DNA from: a virus
IMG/VR virus record: IMGVR_UViG_3300044641_009159
Location: 1 to 28,879 of that record
DNA: 28,879 bases
Strand: one strand, 5' to 3'
In this document: in pieces, positions 11,235 to 28,879 of the stretch
Numbering within the stretch: position 1 is the stretch's first letter
Layout: each line of letters begins with the position of its first letter
Made by a program: the position numbers and the translations under genes
The notes under the pieces: model-generated
The model's input: the letters and a program-made list of their open reading frames with translations, nothing else
What the model was told of the DNA's origin: nothing
The model's database searches: none

Positions 11235-11240
11235 ACTACC

Positions 11241-11703: not shown

Positions 11704-11727
11704 GAATAAATCTCCGATGATGTCGGC

Positions 11728-11735: not shown

Positions 11736-11880
11736 CCTCTTCTATGTCATAGTTTTCTTCGGGATCTAATTCGGTGCCGCAGAACGGGCAATAACGAACC
11801 TCATAGTAGTGGTCGTCCATGTCATACTTTATTCTAAATACTGCATCACAGGCTTCGCATTCATGATGGGTTGTTGGCAT
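11731..11880 (-). CDS. Small acidic zinc-ribbon protein, 49 aa
   Basis: A 49-residue frame starting MPTTHHECEACDAVF with two cysteine pairs: CEAC (Cys8, Cys11) and CPFCG (Cys31, Cys34), a textbook zinc ribbon. The rest is acidic (YDMDDHYYEVRY and a Glu-rich tail). Such mini zinc ribbons are common in T4-like phage genomes, with unknown partners. The start lies inside the 3' end of the dCMP deaminase gene (20-nt overlap), suggesting co-expression. Confidence 0.75.
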   Translation of the reverse strand: MPTTHHECEACDAVFRIKYDMDDHYYEVRYCPFCGTELDPEENYDIEEE

Positions 11881-12397: not shown

Positions 12398-12554
12398 TGA
12401 TTGCCGTCCATTTATTCAGCGGGCAGTGCTGGCCCTTTAATAAAACCTTGCCGGGCATGAAGCAACCACATTCGCGACATACCTTTACTATGCTGTTAAA
12501 GCTGTCGCAGTCTCGGCAGATTGCCATGCGTTGTTCAGCATACTCAGGTAGCAT
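12321..12554 (-). CDS. Small cysteine-rich zinc protein
   Basis: A 77-residue protein with cysteines CRDC (Cys13, Cys16) and CRECGC (Cys26, Cys29, Cys31), followed by KVLLKGQHCPLNKW with Cys44. The pattern CxxC...CxxCGCxMxxKxxLxxxxCPLxKW matches small zinc proteins common in T4-like phages. Relatives that I know end soon after the CPLxKW block. Here the frame continues for about 28 more residues, overlapping the dCMP deaminase start by 77 nt, so the tail may be read-through. It overlaps the upstream methyltransferase gene by 11 nt. Confidence 0.75.
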   Translation of the reverse strand: MLPEYAEQRMAICRDCDSFNSIVKVCRECGCFMPGKVLLKGQHCPLNKWTAINEIKNNSRAPGCCPEVRRSKLGPKA

Positions 12555-15535: not shown

Positions 15536-15536
15536 T

Positions 15537-16502
15537 TTATTCCTCAAAAAGAATTTCTTTTAATCGCTTTTGACAGGACGCCCAGCTCCAGTCCTGTTGC
15601 ATTTTTCTTACAGCCTCGCCGTGTTGGTTGATGGCTCCGGTGATGCTGCGATCCGGATAGGCTCGACAATATTGATGTATGTGTCGGAAGGTTTCGTTGC
15701 GACTCACCAGCAGGGGTCGACCCGATGCTATGGCCTGATCGGTGACTGCGGCCAGGCCCGGCATGTGACGGTCATACATGAACATATTCAAGGTATTGCG
15801 ACTGCACCAGCGAATCAAGTCTGCATCGTCAAAAAACTCTCGAGTAAATTCTACTTCGATGCCGGGACGTGCGTGCTTTAGACACTGCTGCCGAATCATC
15901 TCATACATGGTGTCCTGCGGATCGGCATAGGTAGCCCGGGGAATATTGATTCGTATGCGAGCCTGGTTCAATTCCTTGGCTGCGGCTTCGACAATGCGAT
16001 CAAAGTACTTGTCTTGAGTAGCAAATCCAAAGCTACCGATCACCGGAACATCCGACTCAATGTATGCATCAACTTCAGCCGGAGGTATGGGTCGGGGGAA
16101 AGCATGGAAGCGATCGTGATTGCTAACATAGGTAGGATCCATGACAAGATAGCCATCAAAGTCGTCGCTAAACAATCGACTATAAGGGTTGCCGGGCTCC
16201 ATTTCCAGTATGATGCTATACTTAACACCGGCCAGCCTATGTAGATGTTCACTGAGTATGTTTTCAGTGCCTCGCATAGTAATGTCATGATAATTGAAAA
16301 TATAGGCATCATAGGTCTCCTGTTCAACTTCGTCAATCACCACACGCCCTTGGTATAGAGCTGCTACATCGAAGTTGGGAATTTCCACGTAGTCCAGATC
16401 CCAGTGCTCGCTGCCTTCGAGAGCCTGGAAAATCTGGACGCCGCTTTTATAAATGCTGCAGTTTGCTGCTCGTGTATTAAGAAATAAAAATCGAGGTTTC
16501 AT
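15537..16502 (-). CDS. GT-B fold glycosyltransferase-like protein
   Basis: A 321-residue protein from ATG 16502 (MKPRFLFLNTRAANC); a TTG one codon upstream is less likely. The C-terminal half has the layout of GT-B glycosyltransferases: VIGSFGFATQDKYFDRIVEA, followed by IRINIPRATY and MFMYDRHMPGLAAVTDQAIASGRPLLVSR, where the donor-binding helix and conserved Gly/Pro usually lie. The N-terminal domain is less conserved. It probably adds a sugar in the same pathway as the GT92-type enzyme, with one base between the genes. It is distant from families with known acceptors. Confidence 0.75.
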   Translation of the reverse strand: MKPRFLFLNTRAANCSIYKSGVQIFQALEGSEHWDLDYVEIPNFDVAALYQGRVVIDEVEQETYDAYIFNYHDITMRGTENILSEHLHRLAGVKYSIILEMEPGNPYSRLFSDDFDGYLVMDPTYVSNHDRFHAFPRPIPPAEVDAYIESDVPVIGSFGFATQDKYFDRIVEAAAKELNQARIRINIPRATYADPQDTMYEMIRQQCLKHARPGIEVEFTREFFDDADLIRWCSRNTLNMFMYDRHMPGLAAVTDQAIASGRPLLVSRNETFRHIHQYCRAYPDRSITGAINQHGEAVRKMQQDWSWASCQKRLKEILFEE

Positions 16503-16514
16503 CAATCACCATAA

Positions 16515-17498
16515 TTAGCTTGCCCAGACGTCGTGCCAATCTCCGCTGAGTGCGCCCTTGGCATAATCCGTAGCGCGGTTTTCAAAAAAGTTCGTATGTG
16601 TTGGTGCGTTGATCATTTCTTCGACCCAAGGCAGGGGGTTCTTTTTAACCTTGAAGATACCCTTCATGCCCAGTGCAATAAGTCTGCGATCCGCGATGTA
16701 ACGTATATATTGTTTGACGTCGGCAGCGGTCAATCCTTCGATGCCACCCATGTCAAAACTTAGATCAATGAATCGATCTTCGAGCTCCACCATTTTTTCT
16801 GCGATGGTGTAAATACGGCTCTTAAGATCATCGTTCCAAATTTCCTTGTTCTCTTCCACATAGGTACGAAACAGTTTGATCATGCTTTCGCAGTGCTGAG
16901 TTTCGTCAACAATGCTCCAGGTCACAATCTGTCCCATGCCCTTCATTTTACCGGTGCGAGGGAAGTTAAGTAGCATGATAAAGGAACTGAATAGCTGCAT
17001 GCCTTCGGTGAAAGCACTGAATACTGCAATGTGAGCAGCAGTAGAAGCCCGATCGCCATTCTGTGAGCTAATACCAAGCAGGTAATCATGCTTGTCACGC
17101 ATTTCTGTGTATTCCAAGAACTCATTGTAGGTACTCTCCGGCATGCCCAGTGTTTCAATTAAATGACTATAGGCCGCAATGTGCAGAGCTTCGCGAGCCC
17201 CAAATCCCAGCAACATCATTCTTACTTCGGGCTGTGTAAAATACGGCAGATAATTCTTAACATAGCCGCCGGCAACATCGATATCGCCCTGTGTAAAGAA
17301 ACGAAAAATGTTGGTTAAAAATTTCTTTTCTGCTTCGGTGAGACGATTTTTCCAATCTTTGACATCTTCCAGCATGGGCACTTCGGTATGCAACCAATGA
17401 CTCTGTTCGTGCTTCAACCAACTCTCATAAGCCCAGGGATAATTAAAAGGTTTAAAATGATTGCGCTCATCGGTTAGTTTTAGTTTTATTTTGCTCAT
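16515..17498 (-). CDS. nrdB: Ribonucleotide reductase small subunit, class Ia
   Basis: A 327-residue di-iron subunit that generates the tyrosyl radical for ribonucleotide reduction. Iron ligands and the radical residue line up with E. coli NrdB: Asp72, Glu103 and His106 in REALH, radical Tyr110, Glu165, then Glu199 and His202 in DETQH. Length is slightly shorter than the E. coli protein (376). A C-terminal tail (KGALSGDWHDVWAS) should bind NrdA. It lies about 3.2 kb after nrdA in the direction of transcription, separated by small genes, a nuclease and an amidotransferase-like gene. Confidence 0.95.
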   Translation of the reverse strand: MSKIKLKLTDERNHFKPFNYPWAYESWLKHEQSHWLHTEVPMLEDVKDWKNRLTEAEKKFLTNIFRFFTQGDIDVAGGYVKNYLPYFTQPEVRMMLLGFGAREALHIAAYSHLIETLGMPESTYNEFLEYTEMRDKHDYLLGISSQNGDRASTAAHIAVFSAFTEGMQLFSSFIMLLNFPRTGKMKGMGQIVTWSIVDETQHCESMIKLFRTYVEENKEIWNDDLKSRIYTIAEKMVELEDRFIDLSFDMGGIEGLTAADVKQYIRYIADRRLIALGMKGIFKVKKNPLPWVEEMINAPTHTNFFENRATDYAKGALSGDWHDVWAS

Positions 17499-17499
17499 C

Positions 17500-18138
17500 T
17501 TACCTTTCCATTAATTTGTCTACGAATTCCAGCAGTAGTCTGCCGTGATTATTGTTGTGCCAGTGACGTTTTAAATAGGGACGATCGTACCAAAAGCTCT
17601 GACTTTCTAAGTGAGGGCCTATGAGTCCGATGCGTCCCTGAATAATGGCGGCTGGATCGCCGTTGTGATATCTTGCTATGACATCGAATTTTGATTCATC
17701 GCCGATGAACGCAGGTCCATCGTAAAAGAAGAATCGGTCTGTGTTACCGTTCCAATCACACTCCACTGCTTTACTGTAGTACCTTCGGGTACAGCTGTTG
17801 GGACGTTTAATGTACTGTTCAGTTTTGATATCTGTAAGCCCAAAATAGTGGTTATCAGCCCAATAGGCGCCCATGCAAATCCCCAGATAGCGTCCACCTC
17901 TAGCAACAAATTTCTGTATGCGGGATCGATGGTGCTTAAAAAGAAAATCCCAAGAATCGCTGTCGCCGACACCGCCAGGAAATACAACCATATCGACGTC
18001 ATCAAAAAAATCGTCTTCGAGTTCATGTTTAGTAAATATCTTGAATCGGTATCGGGGACTCAGGGCTTGTATGATGCCATTGGCACTTTGCACACTACAA
18101 CGCGGCTGATGTACAAATACTGCTATGGTTGGTGGCAT
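17500..18138 (-). CDS. BPL_N / class I glutamine-amidotransferase-like protein
   Basis: A 212-residue protein with the flavodoxin-like class I amidotransferase fold of the biotin-protein-ligase N-terminal (BPL_N) family. It has VVFPGGVGDS (oxyanion region, 52-60), a nucleophile elbow GICMGAYWAD with Cys88, and PHLES with His176 and Glu178, which can complete a Cys-His-Glu triad. No ligase domain is attached, so it is not a biotin ligase. The chemistry could be amide hydrolysis or ammonia transfer, with unknown substrate. It abuts the nuclease gene with no gap and stands one base before nrdB. Confidence 0.82.
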   Translation of the reverse strand: MPPTIAVFVHQPRCSVQSANGIIQALSPRYRFKIFTKHELEDDFFDDVDMVVFPGGVGDSDSWDFLFKHHRSRIQKFVARGGRYLGICMGAYWADNHYFGLTDIKTEQYIKRPNSCTRRYYSKAVECDWNGNTDRFFFYDGPAFIGDESKFDVIARYHNGDPAAIIQGRIGLIGPHLESQSFWYDRPYLKRHWHNNNHGRLLLEFVDKLMER

Positions 18139-18561
18139 TTAATCACACCAGCTCTTTTTTGCTTCTCCATGATAAGGGCGGGCCAGCTGATTGTCAATAA
18201 GCATTTTGCTTAAACTCTGACCATCGATGATGACATCGCCCAACACTCGACCGCCGAACTTATCCCAGTCTTTGATTTCAATCTGAATCTTTTTAGCTTC
18301 CGCTACCTTCTTCTTAGTGAAGTCTGTGGCTGCCTGACCACCCTTGGCTTCTTTGTCGCACTTGGCACGCGGAGCCTTTTCCGGAGTATCCACACCCAAT
18401 ACACGCAGACTCAGCAGTGGTTTGAGCGGCGGCGGCAACCATTTAGCTTCAAACTCTACGGTGTCGCCATCCTTGACTCGCGTTACTTTCCAATCATAAA
18501 CCTCGGCTTGTGCGAGGCCGGCGCTTGCCCAAAGTGTCAGTGCTAATAGTGCTTTTTTCAT
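18139..18561 (-). CDS. Secreted thermonuclease-like (SNase) endonuclease
   Basis: A 140-residue exported nuclease. The signal peptide is residues 1-19 (ending LAQA). The staphylococcal nuclease domain is recognisable: VKDGDTV (29-35), RVLGVDTPE with Arg53, Asp58 and Glu61, and GGRVLGDV with Arg105, matching the catalytic Arg/Asp/Glu/Arg set. AGGAG lies seven bases before ATG. It would act in the periplasm, cleaving DNA or RNA. The 5' 68 nt overlap the preceding gene. The activity against superinfecting phage DNA or free DNA is inference. Confidence 0.9.
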   Translation of the reverse strand: MKKALLALTLWASAGLAQAEVYDWKVTRVKDGDTVEFEAKWLPPPLKPLLSLRVLGVDTPEKAPRAKCDKEAKGGQAATDFTKKKVAEAKKIQIEIKDWDKFGGRVLGDVIIDGQSLSKMLIDNQLARPYHGEAKKSWCD

Positions 18562-19207
18562 CGATGTTCTCCTGTTCGTACATTACGGTATTTGTGTCGC
18601 CCAAGAACCACTTGGGCTTGGTTTCTACTATGTATTTCTTGGTGCAGACTCGGAAGTCCGGAAACAGCATTTCTCGGGGATTACTGGCTGCGTCCAAGAA
18701 CAGACAACGGTTATTGGGTTGTGCTGCGAACTGACCATTGTCTAACTGCATGAAGTTAAAACTCTTGTGATCCTCGGGCCATTCAGCATAGGTTGTGTCT
18801 AAAGTGTTGGGGTCGGGTGCGCTGTTGTCTACTGTGAATAGATATTCGCCTTCGTAGAAGTTTTTATCCTTGGCATAGAATTTACAGGTCAGGTTTCGTA
18901 GAAATGACTTCTGTACTACGGTAAAGTCATGACTAAAACAATCCCAGATCTGCAGAGTATCTAGAGGTAAAAACTTTTCAGGGTCAAGATTCTCTGTGCG
19001 AGAAACATACGCTGATAGAGGTAACTTGTCATAAAGTGCGCCATAATTGGGTAAATAACTTTCAATGCGAAATGCCTGTCCTCGAATGCTTTTAATCGAC
19101 ACCCAAATGCAGGGTTCGTATTCTCCATGACCAGTTTCAAAGTCGTAGAGAAATTCTTTTCTTATGTAACAATGTACTGGGGGAATGTTAGCTACCAGAT
19201 GCGCCAT
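18494..19207 (-). CDS. Conserved T4-like phage hypothetical protein
   Basis: A 237-residue soluble protein that begins MAHLVANIPPVHCYIRKEFLY and continues with HGEYEPCIWVSIKSI and LPNYGALYDKLPLSAYV. These blocks are highly conserved in many T4-like cyanophage and marine phage hypotheticals, but no function is known. The middle is beta-rich with LQIWDCFSHDFTVVQ, and the end is polar (EKSTISTDTLGKRRPRTSRGL). The last 22 codons overlap the SNase gene in another frame, an unusually long overlap. A tiny GTG-started frame precedes it and overlaps its start by 20 nt. Confidence 0.85.
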   Translation of the reverse strand: MAHLVANIPPVHCYIRKEFLYDFETGHGEYEPCIWVSIKSIRGQAFRIESYLPNYGALYDKLPLSAYVSRTENLDPEKFLPLDTLQIWDCFSHDFTVVQKSFLRNLTCKFYAKDKNFYEGEYLFTVDNSAPDPNTLDTTYAEWPEDHKSFNFMQLDNGQFAAQPNNRCLFLDAASNPREMLFPDFRVCTKKYIVETKPKWFLGDTNTVMYEQENIDEKSTISTDTLGKRRPRTSRGL

Positions 19208-19271
19208 GTAAATACATCCAAAGTAATAAAACGATTAAACAAAAAAGAATGAACCAGTCAAAGATATCCAC
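19188..19271 (-). CDS. Possible micro membrane peptide, 27 aa (GTG start)
   Basis: A 27-residue frame starting at GTG (translated MDIFDWFILFCLIVLLL) followed by WMYLHGASGS. It is one transmembrane helix. The GTG shares one base with the stop of the gene before it (TAGTG), and it fills the gap to the next gene, overlapping that start by 20 nt. The ribosome-binding site is weak, so expression would rely on coupling. Similar short hydrophobic peptides occur elsewhere in the window. Moderate support only. Confidence 0.45.
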   Translation of the reverse strand: MDIFDWFILFCLIVLLLWMYLHGASGS

Positions 19272-19501
19272 TATGCCACCTGAGCCAAGACATAGATCGC
19301 AGATACCAACATAGCCTTGGTGTGCATGTCGTCGGCTTCGGCGTCTAGACGATCGCTGCGCACCAAGTCCTCCAGCAGCTCTTTATATTCGTCTTTGGTG
19401 AGATCGCCACGAGCCAATTGGTCCTGTAGATCCAAGGCCAGCTGTGCGCGCTGCGCAGCCCAGGGTTTATTGCTTTTTGCTAGTTGGTTAAGATCGCTCA
19501 T
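19271..19501 (-). CDS. Small helical phage protein
   Basis: A 76-residue soluble, helical protein MSDLNQLAKSNKPWAAQRAQL. The block DEYKELLEDLVRSDRLDAEADDMHTKAMLVSAIY is a conserved pattern among small T4-like phage hypotheticals (EYxELLxDLVRxDxxDxEAD). It may form a coiled coil or helical hairpin. It is one base before the lipoprotein gene stop, in the same operon. No function known. Confidence 0.8.
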   Translation of the reverse strand: MSDLNQLAKSNKPWAAQRAQLALDLQDQLARGDLTKDEYKELLEDLVRSDRLDAEADDMHTKAMLVSAIYVLAQVA

Positions 19502-19885
19502 TTAAAATCTCCCTAATACAGCGTTGGCGACTGCGTTGCTCTGCGAGTCCAGTATTTTCTTTTTCATATTACAATAGGTCTCACTGCCTTGTCGTTCTGT
19601 GCTGCGTCGATAAAAATCAGCCACAGTTTCATTCATGGGCTGTGCTGCACGCAGCACATCGCGTGTATCCTTGGCTTGGCTATACAACACCAACCATTCT
19701 AGATTGGTCTTAATGACCGCTACCTGCGGAGCGTGTGGCTGAGTACAGTCCAGCGCCAGTACGGACTGTCGAAGGTCTATGACTACACGACTTTGATTGT
19801 CATCCCAGAAGCTCGGTATTTTGTCTTTAATGGTAGAACATCCCGCAAGCAATGCGAGTACGACGGCGAAGATTAATTTTTTCAT
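19502..19885 (-). CDS. Predicted lipoprotein
   Basis: A 127-residue protein from ATG 19885 (MKKLIFAVVLALLAGCST), with a typical lipobox LAGC and lipidated Cys16. The frame is open to 19921 but GGAG six bases before this ATG and the signal peptide fix the start. The mature part is helical (VVIDLRQSVLALDC, PQVAVIKTNLEWLVLYSQA, PMNETVADFYRRST) with two further cysteines. It would be anchored to the outer or inner membrane facing the periplasm. A spanin-like, superinfection-exclusion or envelope role is possible; it is unlike the o-spanin at 22547-22822 and no partner lies beside it. Confidence 0.75.
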   Translation of the reverse strand: MKKLIFAVVLALLAGCSTIKDKIPSFWDDNQSRVVIDLRQSVLALDCTQPHAPQVAVIKTNLEWLVLYSQAKDTRDVLRAAQPMNETVADFYRRSTERQGSETYCNMKKKILDSQSNAVANAVLGRF

Positions 19886-19896
19886 TGATTCTCCGG

Positions 19897-20220
19897 TTAT
19901 ACGGTAAATGACGAGCCACAACCACAGGTGGCTGTGACATTGGGATTGCGTATTTTGAACTCTGCACCCATCAGTGTTTCTTCATAATCTATGGTGGCTT
20001 CGTTCATGTACTGCATGCTCATGCTGTCCACCACTACACCCACACCATCACGATCGAAGGTATGATCATCTTCGGACGGTGCCTGATCTTCCAGAGTAAA
20101 CCCGTACTGAAATCCACTGCAGCCTCCGCCCTGTACAAAGATACGAAGTCGCAGATTGGGATCTTCTTCATTAATTATCTGGCGAATTTTTCGCACTGCG
20201 GCATCACTGATGGTCACCAT
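19897..20220 (-). CDS. A-type iron-sulfur cluster carrier (HesB/IscA/ErpA family)
   Basis: A 107-residue protein of the HesB/IscA/ErpA family, which hands Fe-S clusters to target proteins. All three conserved cysteines are present: Cys34 in GGGCSGFQ, and Cys99 and Cys101 in CGCGSSF. Overall length and order (ISDAAVRKI, LRIFVQGG, VVVDSMSM, IDYEETLMGAEFKIRNPN) match ErpA well. Such carriers are known as auxiliary metabolic genes in marine phages. In this window no obvious Fe-S client is visible, so it may support host Fe-S proteins or other phage enzymes during infection. AAGG lies before the ATG. Confidence 0.95.
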   Translation of the reverse strand: MVTISDAAVRKIRQIINEEDPNLRLRIFVQGGGCSGFQYGFTLEDQAPSEDDHTFDRDGVGVVVDSMSMQYMNEATIDYEETLMGAEFKIRNPNVTATCGCGSSFTV

Positions 20221-20232
20221 GTTGTACCTTTT

Positions 20233-20535
20233 TTACTTTAACTTGTTTTTAAACATTTTTATTAAAACTCGATACATTTCTCTGGACTCGGGTCGCATCG
20301 GAGGTTCACGATTCAAGGCTCCTCGATAATAATGATTCCATTCATAACTATAGCGAGGAAAGTTTATCATAGTACCATCGGGGTAAATCTCTGAAATGTC
20401 ATAGCTTGGTTCTTTGGTTATTGGATCTATGGACGGCACTATGTGAATTTTTGATATTTCATTCCAGTCCGCTATATCCTTTGCAAATCCCATCAACGGC
20501 ATCAATAACAGCAAAAATGATAAAATAATTTTCAT
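20233..20535 (-). CDS. Predicted secreted small protein
   Basis: A 100-residue protein with a clear signal peptide (MKIILSFLLLLMPLMGFA, cleavage near residue 18). The mature 82 residues are polar, with IHIVPSIDPITKEPSYDISEIYPDG, a Trp/Tyr-rich middle (RYSYEWNHYYRGALN) and a basic C-terminus. It lacks cysteines after the signal, so no disulphide. It would be periplasmic. No family recognised; its neighbours are two membrane peptides and the Fe-S carrier. Confidence 0.75.
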   Translation of the reverse strand: MKIILSFLLLLMPLMGFAKDIADWNEISKIHIVPSIDPITKEPSYDISEIYPDGTMINFPRYSYEWNHYYRGALNREPPMRPESREMYRVLIKMFKNKLK

Positions 20536-20540
20536 GATTT

Positions 20541-20594
20541 TTAACCTGCTATGGACATCAACACCAGCAGTACAACTACAATTGCTTGCAACAT
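20541..20594 (-). CDS. Possible 17-residue membrane peptide
   Basis: A tiny frame MLQAIVVVLLVLMSIAG with AAGGA six bases before the ATG. It is wholly hydrophobic, long enough to cross the membrane once. It lies in the 69-nt gap between the 39-residue membrane gene and the secreted protein gene, both in the same operon. The ribosome-binding site and clean position are the only evidence. Confidence 0.45.
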   Translation of the reverse strand: MLQAIVVVLLVLMSIAG

Positions 20595-20604
20595 GATTGT
20601 TCCT

Positions 20605-20724
20605 TTATGTGGTAAAATATTTTATGGCTTCTACCAAACCGCCATAGATCAATCCACACATGATAATGAACAACGGCGGCACGATGAAAATCAGATAAAA
20701 CCAAATTATCAGACGGCCTATCAT
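20605..20724 (-). CDS. Small membrane protein, 39 aa
   Basis: A 39-residue frame MIGRLIIWFYLIFIVPPLFI followed by IMCGLIYGGLVEAIKYFTT. It is hydrophobic over about residues 4-30, with a PP break that could make a hairpin in the membrane. The start overlaps the nrdA stop by ATGA, so it is probably translated by coupling after NrdA. Function unknown. Confidence 0.6.
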   Translation of the reverse strand: MIGRLIIWFYLIFIVPPLFIIMCGLIYGGLVEAIKYFTT

Positions 20725-22523
20725 CCTTCGCAGGCCAAACAGTCGTTGCCCTCGGCTAGTGCCTTGAGATCAATTTCCTGTATTACTTGTCGTTCGATTT
20801 TACGGGCAACCTTGTCGGCTTTGCCGATTTTCTCTGAGCGACAGTAGTAGAGCGTTTTGAGACCGGACTTCCAGGCTTGGAAATGTACTGCGTGAATGTA
20901 CTTGACATTTGCGTCGGGTCTGAAGAACAGATTGAGTGATTGAGCTTGATCAATATACTGCTGGCGGTCTGCGGCATGCTGTACAAGCCATCGTTGATCG
21001 ATTTCCATCGATGTTTTAAATACTTCTCTCTGCTGTTCATCGAGTACATCGGCAAGGTGTTGAACACTGCCGTCGTTGGCAATGATGCTGGCCCAGATTT
21101 CATTGTAGTCCAGTTTTGAATCAGTGTTGCATTTTTCCCGAATGATTGCGTCCAAGAATCGGTTTTTATTGAGCATGCTTCCCGATAGTGTGTCTTGTCG
21201 GTAAGCGTTAGCACGATAAGGCTCGATGCTAGGGCTAGTATTACCCATGAGAATGCTACTAGATGCGTTGGGAGCAATAGCCATGACATGACTGAAACGA
21301 CGACCAGTGCCGACAGCGTCGGGAGCTTCGCCGCGTTCCTTACCCAATTCAAGATTTGCATGATCCAATCCTTCTCGAATGTGTTTGAAGATTTTTATGT
21401 TGCGTCCCACGGCCATAGGAGTTTCCCAGGCGAGGCCGTTGCGCTGAAGATAAGCATGCCAGCCAAGAGCGCCAATGCCAATGCTGCGCTCGCGGGTAGC
21501 TGAATACTTAGCCCTAGCGATAGCGTTAGGAGCATGGTCAATGAAGTACTGGAGCACGTTATCCAGCATCTCAGCAACATCTTTAAGAAACTGCTCATTG
21601 TTTTTCCATTCATCGTAGTACTCCAGATTGAGACTGCTTAGACAGCACACCGCGGTGCGTTGCTTGTCCGTGGGTAATATGATTTCACTGCATAGATTGC
21701 TTTGCTGAATTTTTAGGCCAAGCTTCCGTTGAAACTCCGGCATGCCGCGATTGCTGGTGTCGATGAAGTGTAGGTACGGCTCGCCAGTCTGCATGCGCAT
21801 TTCTAAAATACGCTGCCAAAGTTCGCGGGCGCTCACAGTATCCTTGACTTCTTTGCTGTGCGGATCACGCAGTTCCCAGGTATCATCCACAGTTTTGTCC
21901 AGCATGCAGCGTTCGATGATCTGCATGAAGTCGTCGGTGATATTGATGCCGTGATGCAGATTCAGGCAACGCATATTTTGATCGCCGGTGGGCTTGCGCA
22001 TTTCCAGGAAGATTAAAATATCAGGATGGCTGATATCAAGATATGCAGCATAACTACCGCGACGAGTCCGACCTTGTCGGTAAGCGAGAGATGATGCGTC
22101 ATATGTGCGAAGGTGTGGCATGATTCCAACACTTTTATCATCCGCTGAACGTATTCCCAGACCAATGCCAACTCCTCCGCCCAGCATGCTGAGCCAATTT
22201 ACTTCACTGAGCGTATCCACCAATCCTTCTGCGCTATCGTCCAGATAAGGCAGAAAACAGCTGATAGGAAGCCCGCGCTTGCTACGACCAAAGCTAAGAA
22301 TAGGAGTACTATAAGATAGCCAATGACGGCTGCTGTACTCATACAAACGCTGAGCGTGCGCTGGATTGCTCCCAAAAGCCGAACTAACATAGGCGAACCT
22401 TTCCTGTGGTGATGCCTCATCGTCTCGCATGTAACTCTCCTGCAGACGTTTGATTCCCAATTCGTCAAACAGTGCGTCGCGAGAATAGTCTACCGTAATG
22501 CCATGTACCTTGCCTGGCGTCAT
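20721..22523 (-). CDS. nrdA: Ribonucleotide reductase large subunit, class Ia, short form
   Basis: A 600-residue catalytic subunit that reduces ribonucleoside diphosphates to deoxy forms. Key cysteines: Cys89 (LPISCFLP), Cys278 with Asn276 and Glu280 (NLCSE, the catalytic triad), Cys293/294 (AVCCLSSLN), and a C-terminal pair CLACEG. Loop-2 and phosphate-binding blocks such as GGGVGIGLGIR and NASSSILMGNTSPS are also present. E. coli NrdA has 761 residues. This one starts directly with the barrel region and lacks room for the N-terminal ATP-cone, so dATP feedback may be absent. The start is supported by GGAG six bases upstream. It pairs with nrdB at 16515-17498. Confidence 0.95.
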   Translation of the reverse strand: MTPGKVHGITVDYSRDALFDELGIKRLQESYMRDDEASPQERFAYVSSAFGSNPAHAQRLYEYSSRHWLSYSTPILSFGRSKRGLPISCFLPYLDDSAEGLVDTLSEVNWLSMLGGGVGIGLGIRSADDKSVGIMPHLRTYDASSLAYRQGRTRRGSYAAYLDISHPDILIFLEMRKPTGDQNMRCLNLHHGINITDDFMQIIERCMLDKTVDDTWELRDPHSKEVKDTVSARELWQRILEMRMQTGEPYLHFIDTSNRGMPEFQRKLGLKIQQSNLCSEIILPTDKQRTAVCCLSSLNLEYYDEWKNNEQFLKDVAEMLDNVLQYFIDHAPNAIARAKYSATRERSIGIGALGWHAYLQRNGLAWETPMAVGRNIKIFKHIREGLDHANLELGKERGEAPDAVGTGRRFSHVMAIAPNASSSILMGNTSPSIEPYRANAYRQDTLSGSMLNKNRFLDAIIREKCNTDSKLDYNEIWASIIANDGSVQHLADVLDEQQREVFKTSMEIDQRWLVQHAADRQQYIDQAQSLNLFFRPDANVKYIHAVHFQAWKSGLKTLYYCRSEKIGKADKVARKIERQVIQEIDLKALAEGNDCLACEG

Positions 22524-22546
22524 ACTTACTCCAATTAATTGTTATG

Positions 22547-22822
22547 TTATTTTACTTCGTCGAATATTTTCTTTTGCGCAGAATACCATTCAATCCAGGC
22601 ATCTTGGCGGGTGCGACATTGGTGATATGTGCTGTAGTTTTTGTTGACAACGGTTAATACTTCAGAAAGTTTTGCGCCCTGCGGCGTCTGCAGCAGCTCA
22701 GGACAGGCTTCCATTAATTCAGCAGGAGCTGCTGGAAACTTGCGTGCCACAGGTACGGTGGTGGAAAACATGGAACAACCAGCCAGAGTCAGACACAATG
22801 CTGCAGTAATTATTCTCATCAT
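22547..22822 (-). CDS. Outer-membrane spanin subunit (o-spanin, Rz1-like)
   Basis: A 91-residue lipoprotein: MMRIITAALCLTLAGCSMF, lipobox LAGC with lipidated Cys16. The mature part has conserved cysteines in ACPELLQTP and YHQCRTR and a C-terminal motif DAWIEWYSAQKKIFDEV, which I associate with phage o-spanins of this type. It should sit in the outer membrane and bind the i-spanin coming from the inner membrane to fuse the two during lysis. Its start overlaps the i-spanin stop by ATGA, the classic spanin arrangement. Longer than lambda Rz1 (60 residues). Confidence 0.83.
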   Translation of the reverse strand: MMRIITAALCLTLAGCSMFSTTVPVARKFPAAPAELMEACPELLQTPQGAKLSEVLTVVNKNYSTYHQCRTRQDAWIEWYSAQKKIFDEVK

Positions 22823-23277
22823 TGTTTATCTCCTTGAGTGGGGTCTTGTGCAGATTGATTTAATATATCTATGGCCTCGGCCGGCAATTCTGGGCAAGCA
22901 GCATCAATGACTTTTTCAACTTCCTTGATCTTTTCCTGCACAACGTATTCTTTTTCTTTGATGACTCGAGTCTTGTATACTACCTTTTCTTGGATGACTG
23001 TATTGACCTTGGCGCTTTTGGCCTCAGCCTCGCGTACCTTGGCTTCCAATTCAGCTACGCGTGCGCGCCAGCTCATTTCCACGCCTACGCCGCCTTCGAA
23101 ATACAGTCCGGCACACAACAATACAGTGCCGATGATGCGAACCACGCCGGCATATGATTTAATACCCGGTATCCACCCCGTAAGACTACCGATGACAAGC
23201 GCAACGGCTCCGGCCGCAGTAATGGCATGCACAGCCATTACTAGCCAGGCATCGGGGATAAAATTAAGCATCCACAT
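22819..23277 (-). CDS. Inner-membrane spanin subunit (i-spanin, Rz-like)
   Basis: A 152-residue protein with two predicted transmembrane helices (about residues 11-32 and 44-66), followed by a long charged coiled coil (about 70-125, ending KEVEKVIDAAC) and a short tail. The coiled coil would span the periplasm. The directly overlapping lipoprotein gene makes this a two-component spanin pair (Rz/Rz1-like). Two membrane helices rather than one is unusual for i-spanins. GGAGG lies about seven bases before the ATG and a late promoter motif at 23311-23318 is 34 nt upstream, as expected for a lysis gene. Confidence 0.8.
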   Translation of the reverse strand: MWMLNFIPDAWLVMAVHAITAAGAVALVIGSLTGWIPGIKSYAGVVRIIGTVLLCAGLYFEGGVGVEMSWRARVAELEAKVREAEAKSAKVNTVIQEKVVYKTRVIKEKEYVVQEKIKEVEKVIDAACPELPAEAIDILNQSAQDPTQGDKQ

Positions 23278-23309
23278 TTGAATTCCTCCGCATTGGTTTC
23301 ATGTATCAC

Positions 23310-24044
23310 CTATTTATTAATTTCCTGCGTTTGTACCGGCTCGGTTACGTGGTCGAAATTCATGATGCTGGGAAATAATTTTGCAATCTCCCAGGCGCAC
23401 TGATGAGCCAGTTCGCGATGTTCCTTCTGTGTGCCAGCTTCGGTGCGCACATCGATGTAGTGCAGCCAGCTGCGCAGGGTACCGTTGACATAGAGCCGAC
23501 TCAGGGTCAGTCCCTCGGGCAAAATGGCTCGAGCCTGTTCTTTGGCCATGCCGTTCTCTATGGCCCATTGATAGGTTGCATCCACCCAGTCAATGAGTTC
23601 CTTCTGTTTCTTTTCCCACTGATGCGCAAAATAGGCCTGTTCGATGTTGTCTTTGTCGATCTCTATGCTGTTTTGTCGATTGGCGGGATCCTGCAGGCGA
23701 GCTTTGCGAGTTTGAAAATTAAATCCCGAACCACCGAGTTCGCTGATGTTGGCATAGCGTTGACTGAACTCCTGGAAACTAAAGCTTCGATGTCTGAGCA
23801 GCTGGCGCGCAATGTCACGTGTAGTCTGTATCTCCAGACATACATTGACCATCTCAAACGGGCTCCAGTGTCGATGCTTCACCAGATAACGAATCAATCG
23901 CTCCGATGTTTCGGTGTTGTGTTGATTGCCGGGATTGCTGACTCTGGCACAATAGGCTACTAGCTCCTGCAGATCTTTTGTTATACCGCCGCCGGGAAAA
24001 TGCTGATGTTGATTACTATAACTTACAATCTGAACATTGGCCAT
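23310..24044 (-). CDS. thyX: Flavin-dependent thymidylate synthase
   Basis: A 244-residue FAD-dependent enzyme that methylates dUMP to dTMP using methylene-tetrahydrofolate. The family signature RHRx7S is present as RHRSFSFQEFS (Arg84-Ser94) followed by QRY. Earlier blocks ARVSNPGN (33-40) and HWSPFEM (59-65) also match ThyX. Near the C-terminus ARAILPEGLTLSRLYVNGTLRSW corresponds to the conserved dUMP-binding Arg/Leu region. The frame is open 69 nt further upstream, but ATG 24044, one base after the primase stop, gives the normal ThyX start. dCMP deaminase in the window makes its dUMP substrate. Confidence 0.95.
   Translation of the reverse strand: MANVQIVSYSNQHQHFPGGGITKDLQELVAYCARVSNPGNQHNTETSERLIRYLVKHRHWSPFEMVNVCLEIQTTRDIARQLLRHRSFSFQEFSQRYANISELGGSGFNFQTRKARLQDPANRQNSIEIDKDNIEQAYFAHQWEKKQKELIDWVDATYQWAIENGMAKEQARAILPEGLTLSRLYVNGTLRSWLHYIDVRTEAGTQKEHRELAHQCAWEIAKLFPSIMNFDHVTEPVQTQEINK
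23311..23318 (-). promoter_or_regulatory. T4-type late promoter motif AATAAATA before the spanins
   Basis: Exact NATAAATA on the minus strand, covering the last codons and stop of thyX (ATT AAT AAA TAG), 34 nt before the i-spanin start. Confidence 0.75.
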
Positions 24045-24045
24045 G

Positions 24046-25101
24046 CTATACTCGCTTCCATACATTAAACTGAGCCTGCGCTCGCAGACCCACAAAGGTG
24101 TTGTCGTCAACAATTTCTGCCAATCTACGCTGCGATAGATCTGGATTGGCCAGCACTACATCGTTGATGTCCTTGCAGCCTTGAAATCTGCTGGGCCAGA
24201 TGAACACCCTGTGCCCGGCTTCGATTATGCGTCGGTACACGGCCACTACTTCGCGGTTGCGGGGCTGGTTGTCAATGATGACGGTCAGTCTTCGATCATC
24301 AACTCCGAGATCAGCAAGCCGATGAAAGCCAGTGCCACCAACAGCAACAGCGTTAGGAAGAAATAGGCTATCAATGGGTCCTTCTACTGCATACACAGTG
24401 GTTAGGGGATTGACATGCTCCCAACCAAAAATCTGCGGAGCGTCTTCGTCGATGCGCACTGTTATATATCTTAAACTCTCACCCTGCAGGGCTCGACAGG
24501 TAACGCCTACTAATTTTCCCGCTTGGTCTCTGAAGGGCAGCACCAGGCGTGGCTCCGAAGTTTTTATCTTGTCACGCATCCGATCGCTGAGTTGTGCGAT
24601 GTTGCGCATGTCGTCGATGAAGTATAAACGATTCAGCTGATATTTCGGTATGCGACGATCTTCACAGAACTTTCGAGCCAGATGATCTTCGGGCAATGTA
24701 TCAACTCGGGGCAAGAGCTCGTCCAACAACGTGGGTGCAGGCTCTTCTTCGTCAAAGCTGAATTTGGGTTCAGTGAACATGGCCTTCAATTGGTCTTCGG
24801 GATTGCTGTGCGCTCGTCGATTTTCTCCGTTGGCATAGCGTTCCAGGGCATACTCTCGATAGAGGTTGCTGTTGAACTGTTTTAGAAATGTACCGAAGTG
24901 CTGACTGGCTTCGCAGTTGTGACATTTGTAGAACAGATCATTGGTTTGTCGATAGAAATAACCGCGAGCTCGATTCTTTTTGCGAGAACTGTCGCCGCAG
25001 ATCGGACAACGACAGTTCCAGAGATGCTGACTCTTTTGCCGAAACAGTTCGAGCTGATGACCGATCATGCCGAGATATTTGATATCGATGTATAAACTCA
25101 T
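24046..25101 (-). CDS. DNA primase, DnaG type (T4 gp61-like)
   Basis: A 351-residue primase that makes RNA primers at the replication fork. The N-terminal zinc domain has CPIC (Cys32, Cys35) and CHNC (Cys60, Cys63). The TOPRIM core has VYAVEGPID (236-244) with catalytic Glu240, and VIIDNQPRN with Asp277. A linker with EEEPAP separates them. Length is close to T4 gp61 (342). A promoter at 25132-25160 overlapping a terminator hairpin stands directly in front; the only likely ribosome-binding site GGAG lies in that hairpin 13 bases before ATG. Followed by thyX after one base. Confidence 0.92.
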   Translation of the reverse strand: MSLYIDIKYLGMIGHQLELFRQKSQHLWNCRCPICGDSSRKKNRARGYFYRQTNDLFYKCHNCEASQHFGTFLKQFNSNLYREYALERYANGENRRAHSNPEDQLKAMFTEPKFSFDEEEPAPTLLDELLPRVDTLPEDHLARKFCEDRRIPKYQLNRLYFIDDMRNIAQLSDRMRDKIKTSEPRLVLPFRDQAGKLVGVTCRALQGESLRYITVRIDEDAPQIFGWEHVNPLTTVYAVEGPIDSLFLPNAVAVGGTGFHRLADLGVDDRRLTVIIDNQPRNREVVAVYRRIIEAGHRVFIWPSRFQGCKDINDVVLANPDLSQRRLAEIVDDNTFVGLRAQAQFNVWKRV

Positions 25102-25106
25102 AGATT

Positions 25107-25131
25107 AAAAAAGGCTCCACTAAGAGCCTTT
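25107..25131 (-). terminator. Rho-independent terminator (bidirectional shape)
   Basis: On the minus strand AAAGGCTC, loop TTAGTG, GAGCCTTT (8-bp stem, 25131-25110), running into six T (25112-25107). It follows the coiled-coil membrane gene by about 30 nt and precedes primase. On the plus strand the stem is also followed by a T/A-rich stretch. Confidence 0.8.
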
Positions 25132-25160
25132 ATTATATAGATATTTTATGCTAGAGTCAA
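25132..25160 (-). promoter_or_regulatory. Sigma-70-type promoter before primase
   Basis: TTGACT (25160-25155), 17-nt spacer, TATAAT (25137-25132). Predicted start near 25125, which lies in the 5' arm of the hairpin at 25107-25131. Confidence 0.8.
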
Positions 25161-25162
25161 TA

Positions 25163-25648
25163 TTATTTTACGCTGATTTCTACTACCTGTAGTATCTTGT
25201 TCATCAAGAAGCCACCCACAATGCCGGCTCCCACCAACATGTAGCGCCAGCGTTCCAAGGCGGAAATTCGTTCGTCTAGTTTGCTCTGCTTGTCGTTGTG
25301 GTACTTCTGATCTTCTTTGAGTTCGTGTTTTAGGTCTTCGATGCCGGTTAAAACGGTTTTCTGCACTTCGCTGATTTCCTGACTGAGTTCGCGGGTAGTG
25401 GTGGTGATGCGACTATGCAGTTCTTTGATGTCTTCGTTCATTTCATGTCTGCGCTTTTCTAAAAGGTCAAGGATGTCGCTGGTGGCCTTTTCACCACGCT
25501 CCAGCCGCTGATCGTGCACCGCCAGTATCTTGCCGATGTCCGCAGTAACGTCGGTGATCTTTTCTATGGCTCGTTCCAGACGATCCACGACCTGGGCTGC
25601 TTGATCCAGTTCCTGTTCGATGACGGCTAGTTGTGTTTCCACGCTCAT
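25163..25648 (-). CDS. Coiled-coil protein with C-terminal membrane helix
   Basis: A 161-residue protein. Residues 1-130 are charged and heptad-like (LAVIEQELDQAAQVVDRLERAIEK and on), predicting a long coiled coil. Near the C-terminus WRYMLVGAGIVGGFLMNKIL (about 134-153) is a transmembrane helix with a short polar tail. It is a tail-anchored design common in T4-like marine phages, with unknown function; it lies at the end of the virion gene cluster. No ribosome-binding site is visible and the late promoter motif at 25656-25663 predicts a transcript start only 2 nt before the ATG. Confidence 0.8.
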   Translation of the reverse strand: MSVETQLAVIEQELDQAAQVVDRLERAIEKITDVTADIGKILAVHDQRLERGEKATSDILDLLEKRRHEMNEDIKELHSRITTTTRELSQEISEVQKTVLTGIEDLKHELKEDQKYHNDKQSKLDERISALERWRYMLVGAGIVGGFLMNKILQVVEISVK

Positions 25649-25655
25649 GGTTGTA

Positions 25656-25663
25656 TATTTATC
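25656..25663 (-). promoter_or_regulatory. T4-type late promoter motif GATAAATA
   Basis: Exact NATAAATA, directly after the structural gene stop (25666). With usual late-promoter spacing transcription would start near 25650, about 2 nt before the ATG at 25648. Confidence 0.55.
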
Positions 25664-25665
25664 GT

Positions 25666-26937
25666 TTACTTAACTTCAATCCATTTTAAACTGGCTCGAG
25701 CATTGACGCTGGCACCCAGGGGATAACCCACGATGACAAATATCTGACTGTCAGTGGCACTGTGATTCTGGAAAATTACACTGTTGCGGTTCTCCGATGG
25801 TTCGCTAATGGCCACACCAAACTTGTTGTTCTGTGCGCCAGTAACGAACTGATCGTCGATGATCATGGCCGTATTGGCCCAACTGGTGGTTAAAGCGAAA
25901 TCCTGGATATACTCACACCAACCCAGACCCGGTACTGCGGTCCAGGTTACCGTACTGCTGATGGATGATGAATTTTGCAGAACTGCAATCTTAAAATTCA
26001 TGTCTTGATCTGCACTGGCACTGTAGCGTTTCAATCGAGCCAAAGCATGCAGGGGTTTACCATTGACCACGGTATTTTTTAGTCTCACTGCCAACAAACC
26101 GCGGCCATACACAGCGTTCGACGAAGTTACACTGACGGTTGCTCCATCGGTGCTGACAGCGCGAATGAATCCAGTTTCAAAGTCTGCGCCCTCGGCCTGC
26201 ACGCTGCCGCAGATCGACGTCAGGGTATGACTAGTAGTCTGAGCTGTGGTGTTGCGAATTTCCCAGCGTAATGGTAGACTGGGCTGCGACATGTAGGGAA
26301 CATCGGCAGTACGATTGGCATGCTCAAAATGATGTACATTGATGGATATGCCGTCGATGACAAACCCCACACGAGCTCGACCCACACCCAACCATTGATA
26401 GTCAATGCTTAAAATCTGAGCCTTGGTCCAGTCTGCAGTAATGCCGCTCTGATTATATTCCGTCATGCTGCCGTCCAGCCGATCCGCATTCCAGGCTGAT
26501 TGAGGAACTATTTCACGATCCACGCCTCGATTGCGAATCACCATTTCTGCCACACCGTCGCGCCGACGGAAGAAAATGCCGTTGTCGGCGTCGAACAATC
26601 CTGCGCTCTGCGACACACCAACCACGCTGGTGTCCATGACAAATGTCATGAGCGCAAAATGACCGGTGCCAGGAATATAGGGATGGTACTGCTTGGTCTG
26701 CACAAACGCCAGACTGCCGCTGGTGGTGTTGACCGTGGAGACAATGCTGATGCTGGTGTAGTTCAGGGCAATGGTGGCACCGTTGCTGGTGACATAGTCC
26801 ATTTCATAGGTAGTGCCGCTGCCGTACATGATGCGATAGTCGCCCAGGATGCGGCTGTCGGCTGTGCGCAGTCGTCCAAAAGCTGAAATATTTTCACTGT
26901 CGTCGTAGCGTATTTTGTCGTCAAAAAGATAGGTCAT
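25666..26937 (-). CDS. Predicted virion structural protein, fibre-like
   Basis: A 423-residue Ser/Thr/Asn-rich, beta-rich protein. The N-terminus MTYLFDDKIRYDDSENISAFGRLRT is a block I recognise from structural proteins of T4-like marine phages. LSIDYQWLGVGRARVGFVIDG (about 190-210) is a second conserved block in this family, probably part of a lectin-like beta sandwich. The C-terminal half has repeated beta strands (AVRLKNTVVNGKPLHALARLKRYSA) and a final YPLGASVNARASLKWIEVK. It probably binds a surface or forms part of the virion fibre or baseplate. It overlaps the previous gene by ATGA. Confidence 0.8.
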   Translation of the reverse strand: MTYLFDDKIRYDDSENISAFGRLRTADSRILGDYRIMYGSGTTYEMDYVTSNGATIALNYTSISIVSTVNTTSGSLAFVQTKQYHPYIPGTGHFALMTFVMDTSVVGVSQSAGLFDADNGIFFRRRDGVAEMVIRNRGVDREIVPQSAWNADRLDGSMTEYNQSGITADWTKAQILSIDYQWLGVGRARVGFVIDGISINVHHFEHANRTADVPYMSQPSLPLRWEIRNTTAQTTSHTLTSICGSVQAEGADFETGFIRAVSTDGATVSVTSSNAVYGRGLLAVRLKNTVVNGKPLHALARLKRYSASADQDMNFKIAVLQNSSSISSTVTWTAVPGLGWCEYIQDFALTTSWANTAMIIDDQFVTGAQNNKFGVAISEPSENRNSVIFQNHSATDSQIFVIVGYPLGASVNARASLKWIEVK

Positions 26938-27668
26938 ATGATTCTCCAGCCATTGTTGTGGTAAACCAACTGCACGGCTCCGTTGTTGATGCGAATTTCT
27001 GCGCCATTGGGGTCATTGTCTATGTTGCCTACTATGGCTATGGGTGTGAGCTGTGCATGACCGCTTTCGTCTTTGATCACCACCACACGCCCTTCTTTGA
27101 CATTGCTACCAATAGCAGGTAAGGTAATGTAGGTCTTGACTGTGCTGCTGACGCCGATGTAGTAATCTTTACGCCCTATGGTGTAGTCACCAGTAACACT
27201 TTTAGCTGGTATGTCCAGATTGTAGATCTGCGCTGCGCCACCGCCTGGACCTGTGGCTGCTATGCGGCTTACCCATTCGCGCAGATATTTAATCTCCTGC
27301 AGCACATCCTTCTGTGGCTGAGCCAACACGGGCTCGGGCGCCACCACACCGCTCTCGGCAATTACTCGGGCGACTTTATGGGCAATGGATTCGGCAATGG
27401 GGGTCTGGACTGGCTGGGGATGGGGTTCGCTGGGCTGCTCGGTGGGCTCGGGTGGCGACTCGGGCGGTGACTGAACCAACTCATGTTGTTCTCCCCAGAT
27501 TTGTTGTAGGTCCTCGGCTATGCGCTGACGTATTTCTGCTTCACGAATTGTAATACAACGTTCCTCTTCTTCGAGGCGCGCAATCTCTTCAACCAGTCCT
27601 GGTGCAGGAGGCTGTCCAAATCGCTGGGCCAGTGCCAGCAGTGCTCGCTTCTCCTGCAGCTTGTTCAT
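26934..27668 (-). CDS. Predicted virion structural protein with fibre-like C-terminus
   Basis: A 244-residue protein in two parts. Residues 1-64 form a charged helix or coiled coil (RLEEEERCITIREAEIRQRI). Residues about 66-90 are a Pro/Glu/Gln linker (PPESPPEPTEQPSEP). The C-terminal half is beta-type with YYIGVSSTVKTYITLP, GRVVVIKDESG and a final VQLVYHNNGWRII. This C-terminal motif pattern is common in tail-fibre and neck-type structural proteins of marine T4-like phages, and may form a trimeric tip. It is linked to both neighbours by ATGA. Confidence 0.78.
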   Translation of the reverse strand: MNKLQEKRALLALAQRFGQPPAPGLVEEIARLEEEERCITIREAEIRQRIAEDLQQIWGEQHELVQSPPESPPEPTEQPSEPHPQPVQTPIAESIAHKVARVIAESGVVAPEPVLAQPQKDVLQEIKYLREWVSRIAATGPGGGAAQIYNLDIPAKSVTGDYTIGRKDYYIGVSSTVKTYITLPAIGSNVKEGRVVVIKDESGHAQLTPIAIVGNIDNDPNGAEIRINNGAVQLVYHNNGWRII

Positions 27669-27895
27669 TGTTTCTTGGCTGCACGTGTTTTCTTGACTGC
27701 GGGTTTCTTGGGCTGTGCTTTTTCTTTCTTGGGTGCAGTTACCTTGTTGGCCACAGCCTTGGCAATCTGTTCAGCCTGTGGGCTGGGTTCTACTGGTGCG
27801 GCACGCTCGGGTTGCGGCATGCTGTCTACCTTCTTGGCCAGCAGACTTTCATCTATGGGCTTGATGCGAAATAAATCAATGATGGCTTTAAACAT
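27665..27895 (-). CDS. Small K/A/P-tailed protein of the virion cluster
   Basis: A 76-residue protein from ATG 27895 (MFKAIIDLFRIKPIDESLL). The frame is open to 28000 but that part overlaps the upstream gene. The first 40 residues may be a helix. The last 30 are a low-complexity Lys/Ala/Pro tail (VTAPKKEKAQPKKPAVKKTRAAKKQ without long repeats), like a histone tail. It may bind DNA or the acidic surfaces of virion proteins. It overlaps the gene before by 8 nt and the next by ATGA. Confidence 0.72.
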   Translation of the reverse strand: MFKAIIDLFRIKPIDESLLAKKVDSMPQPERAAPVEPSPQAEQIAKAVANKVTAPKKEKAQPKKPAVKKTRAAKKQ

Positions 27896-28433
27896 TAGGC
27901 TTCTTCCTTCTTGCAAGTTTTTTACCAAGTCGCAGATCACGACCCGCCAGATTGGGATTGGGGTCCGGCACACCCTGTGCTGAGAATCCACCACCCACAC
28001 TATTTACCACAGTAAAATCTTCTAGATGCATTTTAAATGACTTCATGCCGCGAAAAAAGTTTTCTACTTCCTGCATTTCTACTGCATATTCTATGCCCTC
28101 GTTCAGTGATTTAAAACGAGCTTCGAATGCACTGGGCAGAGGTTCTGAATCTTTGTCATAGTGTTCTTTGATCAGTGCCAGAGCAGTGGCAAAGCTGGCC
28201 AGCTTGCTGTTCTCGAACGGCACCTTTTCTATGATGCGTTTCATGCGCCAGACTAAACGGTCCAGCAGGGTATAGGCATCACGTTCTTCTGGTGAGTTCA
28301 GTGTACCAAACTTGCGCAGGATCTTGCCTTTTTCGTCAATGATGCCCAGACGATAGGCCTCGGTTTCATTGAAAGGAGTTGCCAGCTTGCGCAGTATGCG
28401 ATAAACTATGACGGCATCAACAAATCGTGACAT
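27888..28433 (-). CDS. Conserved T4-like phage protein in the virion cluster
   Basis: A 181-residue protein MSRFVDAVIVYRILRKLATPF. The block TEAYRLGIIDEKGKILRK, followed by ERDAYTLLDRLVWRMKRIIEKVP, is conserved among T4-like phages. The C-terminal part contains EVENFFRGMKSF and a basic tail (GRDLRLGKKLARRKKPNV). It is mostly helical. Its function is unknown to me; location beside structural genes suggests a role in assembly. The start overlaps the upstream stop by one base (TAATG). Confidence 0.8.
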   Translation of the reverse strand: MSRFVDAVIVYRILRKLATPFNETEAYRLGIIDEKGKILRKFGTLNSPEERDAYTLLDRLVWRMKRIIEKVPFENSKLASFATALALIKEHYDKDSEPLPSAFEARFKSLNEGIEYAVEMQEVENFFRGMKSFKMHLEDFTVVNSVGGGFSAQGVPDPNPNLAGRDLRLGKKLARRKKPNV

Positions 28434-28819
28434 TAGATCTTCCTTAGCAGGTCCACTAGATTGCTGTCCAGTGGTATTTCACTTTCTGGCATACTCATAC
28501 CATTGCTGACTGTCACCGTACGTGGCATGTAGTTCAGGAACACCAGAAAAGTTTTTAGCTCGGGCCAGAGACTTTCCTGTATCTTGAAGAACAGCATTTT
28601 ACTGGCAGCGTCAACACCAAACACATTGTAAAAGACTATGAGATGGTTGATGATCAGACGTTCTTTGATGTCTCCGGTCTGACGATATCTACCCAACAAT
28701 CTTTTGATGTAGCGCAGACGTTTAAGGTCGTCCTGAAAGTCTCGCAAACCACGACAACCTGGATTGTCGTAGTTCTTGATGGCATACATCAAAAAGTTCT
28801 CATTAGTCAATTTGAACAT
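28433..28819 (-). CDS. Conserved T4-like phage protein (FKLTNENFLMYA type)
   Basis: A 128-residue protein from ATG 28819 (MFKLTNENFLMYAIKNYDNPG). The frame is open to the right edge, but the family start MxKLTNENFLMYA fits this ATG and an upstream partial gene ends two bases before it. The block RLRYIKRLLGRYRQTGDIKERLIINHLIVFYNVFG is strongly conserved in T4-like phages, followed by MLFFKIQESLWPELKTFLVFLN. It is helical and soluble. No function known. It belongs with the virion cluster. Confidence 0.8.
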   Translation of the reverse strand: MFKLTNENFLMYAIKNYDNPGCRGLRDFQDDLKRLRYIKRLLGRYRQTGDIKERLIINHLIVFYNVFGVDAASKMLFFKIQESLWPELKTFLVFLNYMPRTVTVSNGMSMPESEIPLDSNLVDLLRKI

Positions 28820-28820
28820 A

Positions 28821-28879
28821 TCAAATAGTAAATAGTCTGGCACTCCAACGCAGATGCACCGTGGTGCTGGTATCCTGTG
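28821..28879 (-). CDS. Partial 3' end of a phage gene
   Basis: The last 18 codons of a frame that enters from the right edge and stops (TGA) at 28821, one base before the next ATG. The visible tail QDTSTTVHLRWSARLFTI has the look of a beta-type structural protein end. The 1-nt gap to the following gene fits the junction style of the window. Too short to identify. Confidence 0.55.
   Translation of the reverse strand, partial: QDTSTTVHLRWSARLFTI

Follow-up and report, generated by a model that had tools for sequence, protein, structure and literature searches.

A predicted early promoter with its start inside a terminator-like hairpin, upstream of the primase gene of an uncultured T4-like phage

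The silencing of late genes on early RNA has its textbook example in phage T4. The insertion sequences IS10 and IS50 are protected from outside transcription, since the transposase ribosome site on read-through RNA is masked through pairing with a segment 5′ of the start point of the element's own promoter. The frd terminator/ampC attenuator of E. coli is a single hairpin that ends the upstream operon and sits in the control region of the next gene. In the T4 genes e, soc, 49, I-TevI and segB and in the mobE gene of phage Aeh1, a hairpin covers the ribosome site and a promoter is embedded in the 5′ portion of that hairpin (PMC3014915, PMC2988022). In T4, RNA without the 5′ part of the structure was translated well, and the structured gene e RNA was down 100-fold (PMC3014915). 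RNA polymerase can recycle to nearby promoters after intrinsic termination, which is a general property observed in vitro (PMC7957599). No described case of a promoter start inside a terminator was found in the literature searched, a coverage that most subscription journals lay outside.

The window (the whole stretch of DNA analysed here) spans 28.9 kb and is part of the genome of an uncultured T4-like phage; its large genes are all on the minus strand. A DNA similarity search of the window against cultured phages gave no match. The features around the primase gene are as follows:
25666–26937, minus strand: virion structural protein gene (phrog_1645, E 9.2e-67), the proposed source of upstream transcription
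25656–25663, minus strand: GATAAATA, a candidate T4-type late promoter directly 5′ of the DUF7201 gene, a weak match to the consensus only
25163–25648, minus strand: DUF7201 coiled-coil gene of 161 aa (PF23831, E 9.5e-20), the 5′ neighbour of primase
24046–25101, minus strand: gp61-like DNA primase gene of 351 aa (phrog_47, E 7.5e-66), with its ATG at 25101

The first-pass annotation had placed this locus at a border between structural and replication genes. The gene content fits a late/early border: upstream are the virion protein and DUF7201 genes, and downstream the genes for primase, Thy1, ribonucleotide reductase, dCMP deaminase and an exonuclease. The primase shares 37–38% identity with the primases of cultured Kyanoviridae. 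In cultured Kyanoviridae (S-RSM4, S-WAM2, P-TIM40, Mosig, Melnitz), structural or hypothetical genes are followed by primase and then by the ribonucleotide reductase gene. The cultured relatives Melnitz, Mosig and cyanophages have the gene order of the window together with a promoter-like site ahead of primase. No hairpin was found before primase in these cultured relatives, several of which have a gap of 3 nt or less. The family phrog_451 matched positions 24046–25648, its first part the DUF7201 protein and its second part primase, which suggests that the two genes are fused in some phages.

From 25132 towards lower coordinates, the minus strand carries early promoters with 11 or 12 of the 12 consensus bases. 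Eleven of these lie below 18.2 kb, and the primase promoter is the first of this early-promoter block within the window. Perfect sigma70 promoters are densely packed before small early genes at 1–15100 of the minus strand, five of them at 12/12. The strong late promoter TATAAATA was sought across the window and was absent; only ATAAATA matches occurred, at chance level. TATAAATA is strongly strand-biased in the relatives (for example, 24 vs 3, 32 vs 8, and 16 vs 1). The RNA entering from the upstream virion genes is likely late, judging from the gene content, the weak late-promoter match and the TATAAATA bias in the relatives.

The gap between the stop of the DUF7201 gene (25163) and the primase ATG (25101) is 61 bp on the minus strand, and it leaves no room for further elements because the upstream stop lies at 25163. 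It contains the following:
25155–25160, minus strand: −35 hexamer TTGACT
25132–25137, minus strand: −10 hexamer TATAAT after a 17-nt spacer; TATAAT is at the equivalent place in most relatives
25131–25110, minus strand: hairpin AAAGGCTCT-TAGT-GGAGCCTTT of 9 pairs with a loop of 4 nt, directly adjoining the −10
25123–25131, minus strand: 5′ arm of the hairpin, AAAGGCTCT, from folding; the arms covary in relatives
25110–25118, minus strand: 3′ arm of the hairpin, GGAGCCTTT, from folding
25121–25127, minus strand: predicted transcription start zone, with +1 at 25125 by the 7-nt rule, inside the 5′ arm
25115–25118, minus strand: GGAG, the candidate ribosome-binding site, within the 3′ arm
25107–25112, minus strand: T tract TTTTTT, three T of which are inside the stem, followed by AATCT and the ATG

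All elements of the promoter and hairpin were found on the minus strand where the first-pass annotation had put them, with the −10 ending at 25132 and the hairpin running from 25131. TTGACT-17-TATAAT has 11 of the 12 consensus bases, is tied with one other as the top promoter-like site in 15000–28879, and is of the sigma70 type (TTGACA/TATAAT, spacer of 16–18 nt). The stem of 9 pairs (−12.1 kcal/mol) followed by TTTTTT has the sequence of an intrinsic terminator, namely a G+C-rich stem and then at least five T. The window had no Rfam match at the gathering score, and the best match in the region was far below threshold. Promoter-like sites numbered 26 in the stretch vs 19.4 expected, and terminator-like sites 15 vs 13.2 expected. 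Since each kind of site is common by chance, what exceeds chance is the precise nesting and the fact that relatives repeat it, and the relatives are the main part of the evidence.

The start had been predicted at about 25125, in the 5′ arm, and the 7-nt rule leads to the same position; however, 25126–25122 are all pyrimidines, and the purines nearest to the predicted +1 are G25127 and A25121. The actual start could be G25127 or G25128, which would leave a stem of 4–5 bp, or A25121. GGAG had been named as the only candidate ribosome site of primase, and the sequence confirmed this, at a long spacing of 13 nt from the ATG.

The 39-nt hairpin had a folding energy of −13.5 kcal/mol (z −4.4), and none of 200 shuffles was equally stable; the hairpin is not a product of chance. 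The computed cost of opening the ribosome site and start codon was 16.7–16.8 kcal/mol on read-through RNA vs about 3.3 kcal/mol on promoter RNA. When the 40 nt upstream of +1 were shuffled, the mean opening cost was 9.1 kcal/mol (p 0.014 with 500 shuffles, 0.03 with 100 shuffles). The cost varied with the start, from 10.4 kcal/mol at G25128, where the ribosome site is still mostly closed, to 6.8 at G25127, 3.9 at 25126 and 2.4 at A25121. In the computed structures, GGAG is paired in read-through RNA and unpaired in RNA from starts at 25126 or later. The earlier claim that the hairpin is avoided, and GGAG exposed, solely in transcripts of the nested promoter is consistent with these energetics, but in the model the switch hinges on the position of a predicted start to within 2–3 nt.

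We propose that the 61-bp gap insulates the primase gene in one direction. Transcripts reading in from the virion genes would have both arms, would fold the hairpin once made, and would mostly terminate at the U tract. Any such RNA that passed the U tract would have GGAG locked in the stem and would be poorly translated. RNA from the host-sigma70-type early promoter, whose −10 lies directly before the hairpin, would begin in the 5′ arm, form no stem, and pass the U tract with its ribosome site open. Primase translation would thereby be tied to its own early promoter. We give a probability of about 0.66 to the reading that the nested sigma70 early promoter and hairpin stop and/or silence read-through RNA and spare promoter RNA. 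The basis of this reading is the anatomy, the computed folding, the recurrence and the covariation, combined with a predicted start and with presumed termination, silencing and late timing.

The closest described arrangement is the T4 gene e type, in which a long upstream RNA likewise folds over the Shine-Dalgarno sequence and RNA from the nested promoter, without the 5′ arm, is translatable. The T4 examples are late genes that are silent on early RNA and have late-type promoters (PMC3014915, PMC2988022), whereas the window has a sigma70-type early promoter, a replication gene (primase), a silenced RNA that is presumed to be late, and an added terminator. Compared feature by feature, the ribosome site in the window is paired on the computed upstream RNA and the predicted start is within or beyond the 5′ arm, as in the gene e type, but the nested promoter is TTGACT-17-TATAAT and not the T4 late TATAAATA. 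The device in the window would work like the T4 device but is outside the T4 late class. The arrangement in IS10 and IS50 guards a mobile element from random neighbours, whereas that in the window would guard primase from an upstream operon of the same phage and has an additional terminator. The ampC RNA carries the whole hairpin and is attenuated, whereas the primase RNA is proposed to lack the 5′ arm and to escape. Polymerase recycling (PMC7957599) shares a terminator near a promoter but has neither a nested hairpin nor a translational part. By analogy, the terminator in the window may also recycle polymerase to the primase promoter, an extra that the mechanism does not need.

Four scans of viral contigs yielded 161 distinct regions upstream of primase, and a promoter match that could be used was present in 130 of them. 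A sigma70-type promoter shortly before primase was nearly constant among the relatives. A stem of −7 kcal/mol or better straddling the predicted +1 was present at 38 of 130 distinct primase loci of T4-like viral contigs vs 5.9 expected from shuffled DNA upstream of +1, and such locus frequencies are not population estimates because the searches were centred on hairpin-bearing clades. The same layout had been expected before primase in relatives, and this excess is in line with it, but the closest relatives have no hairpin. A T tract was also present in 19 of the 38 hairpin loci, 17 flagged by script and two (the window and L251) by eye. The distance from the −10 to the start codon was bimodal, at 5–10 and 19–46. 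The loci showed three layouts:
Layout i, hairpin with T tract, GGAG-type arms as in the window: L020, L036, L037, L041, L244, L247, L251
Layout i, hairpin with T tract, AAACCTATAC-type arms and a T run up to the ATG: L042, L052, L053, L062, L088, L165, L167, L171, L174
Layout i, hairpin with T tract, other arms: L044, L306
Layout ii, hairpin without T tract: L006, L009, L011, L015, L043, L047, L049, L201, L271
Layout ii, unrelated long stems of 15–19 pairs, with the −10 in the 5′ arm and GGAGG and ATG in the 3′ arm: L048, L050, L054
Layout ii, unrelated long stem without T tract: L076
Layout ii, unrelated long stem of 15 pairs from the −10 to the start codon, with the −10 paired with the start codon: L087
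Layout ii, unrelated long stem with its 5′ arm within the spacer and AGAGG in the 3′ arm: L100
Layout iii, leaderless, with TATAAT 5–10 nt before the start codon: 44 loci (L001, L004, L027, L028, L029, L264 and 38 others)

The hairpin sequences vary between lineages, and AAACCTATAC..GTGTAGGTTTTTTTATG is an unrelated hairpin in another clade. A ribosome-site-like 4-mer was present in only 1 of the 44 leaderless loci. Leaderless relatives would reach the same outcome through the missing ribosome site, since only RNA beginning at the AUG would be read. Under the criteria used, another 48 of the 130 loci fit no layout and have neither a qualifying stem nor a start codon within 10 nt of the −10; among them, L055 and L288 have stems just below the cut-off or in a different register. 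Upstream of primase, L039 has the inverted repeat AGACTC-TATAAT-TAGAGTCT, with the −10 in the loop and GGAGG free just after it.

The first-pass annotation had described the locus as an insulator and switch. The energetics fit this idea and the recurrence supports it strongly, but the terminator part is not conserved, the T tract being absent from about half of the loci with a hairpin. For this reason, masking of the ribosome site may have come first or may be what the hairpin mainly does. In a stronger form, which we regard as unlikely though worth weighing, masking is what the hairpin is for and the T tract has no role of its own, so that read-through RNA is left untranslated as in T4 gene e, with an early promoter replacing the late one. 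The T tract is missing from all of the L006/L009/L011/L015 group and from L043 and L271, while GGAG or GAGG is kept in the 3′ arm and a ribosome-site-like 4-mer occurs in 16 of the 19 hairpin loci without a T tract. However, the stem in the window runs into a full T run, and T runs 5–8 long are found in L020, L036, L037, L041, L044, L052, L053 and L062. These T runs take up room before the ATG, and it is difficult to account for them unless termination occurs.

The arms were compared in the GGAG family. They were paired by hand; MAFFT misplaced the short 3′ arms. Across 12 distinct arm pairs, 83 of 84 positions pair (73 Watson-Crick, 10 G.U) and the remaining one is A.C, counts that lean towards structure because the register was chosen to pair. 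Shuffled partners equalled the observed pairing in 0 of 5000 trials. One pair position shows six types (A-T, C-G, G-C, G-T, T-A and T-G). These pairs bear on the possibility that a dimeric repressor binds the inverted repeat as a DNA operator and thereby switches off the early promoter, with RNA folding as a by-product. Palindromes over the −10 and +1 are typical of repressor sites, and the repeat is centred near the −10 in several relatives (L039, L067, L291). The operator reading is nevertheless disfavoured because a G.U pair can form in RNA but disrupts a DNA dyad, and G.U outnumbers A.C by 10 to 1 in the arms. Ribosome sites in the 3′ arm, T tracts after the stems, sequences unrelated between lineages, and the lack of the repeat at most other promoters of the same phages also speak against it, and we consider it very improbable.

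In a further test of opening cost, the promoter RNA was held fixed and only the 40 nt absent from it were shuffled. The cost was significant (p ≤ 0.05) at 21 of 72 dissimilar primase loci, where about 3.6 were expected (binomial 2.5e-11). Other early promoters in the relatives gave 7 significant cases of 57 (Fisher p 0.017 vs primase), and the excess opening cost was greater at primase than at these promoters (p 0.0004). The whole-region fold z-scores separated primase from other promoters only moderately (p 0.007), less sharply than this test. The idea that hairpins occur on all early promoters was rejected, as few of 122 exact promoters from 14 related contigs had a strong hairpin within 14 nt of the −10, and about half of these few were the primase ones. 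A plain terminator and a plain promoter squeezed into a short gap without regulatory meaning would suit compact phage genomes and the commonness of simple promoter and terminator matches, but this has little chance of being correct given +1-straddling stems 6 times as frequent as in shuffled upstream sequence, many of them without a T tract, the bimodal −10 to ATG distances and the larger sequestration excess at primase.

The distribution of the proposed insulator was followed on a primase tree. On this quick tree, where the window sits on a long branch (0.42) and is unusual in composition, at least 9 gains or losses on well-supported branches are needed for each of the two hairpin labels. Six leaderless loci form the sister group of the window, whose nearest relatives have no hairpin and a promoter 6–8 nt ahead of the ATG. 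L201, L251 and L271 are far from the window on the tree, with seven apical arm pairs identical to those of the window (AAGGCTC/GAGCCTT). The number of changes and the identical arms in distant loci indicate that the device was either gained or lost many times or is convergent, with GGAG forcing CTCC-like partners.

We tentatively advance, at somewhat under even odds, a wider claim for T4-like phages related to Kyanoviridae. Their primase would be translatable only from RNA of its own early promoter, and this wiring would have been repeatedly re-invented, whether as a terminator hairpin, as a hairpin that covers the ribosome site or the start codon, or as a leaderless start without a ribosome site. 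If this is true, the T4 logic is reversed, with an early replication gene silent on structural-operon RNA in many uncultured T4-like phages through sequence-unrelated devices. It would also point to selection against late primase production. The gap would then be a compact promoter-insulator design of about 60 bp that both stops the message from upstream and makes it unreadable.

Similar nesting was seen at other genes. A second early gene in the window (9763–9820, minus strand) has the promoter TTGACA-16-TAGAAT (9820–9793) with TTCGTTC in its spacer. The complementary GAACGAA lies directly before the ATG at 9763, so the logic resembles that at primase. The opening cost at this gene was 3.3 on promoter RNA vs 12.8 on read-through RNA (p 0.004). 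Two more early genes on the contig of L055, L125 (about 17201, minus strand) and L126 (about 8674, minus strand), showed a strong effect, the opening cost rising from 2.5 to 21.7 and from 5.5 to 23.3, respectively (p 0.01 each). By eye, the L125 gene looks like DNA polymerase gp43 and the L126 gene like a CobT-type protein. On the contig of L013, a small ORF is preceded by the promoter L107 (about 7725, minus strand), which is nested in the terminator-like hairpin TATAATatgtGTATAGTAAT-taat-ATTACTATGTtttttt. Upstream of L107 is a gene that by eye resembles the one for the RNA polymerase omega subunit (RpoZ) and that comes after a tRNA-like sequence.
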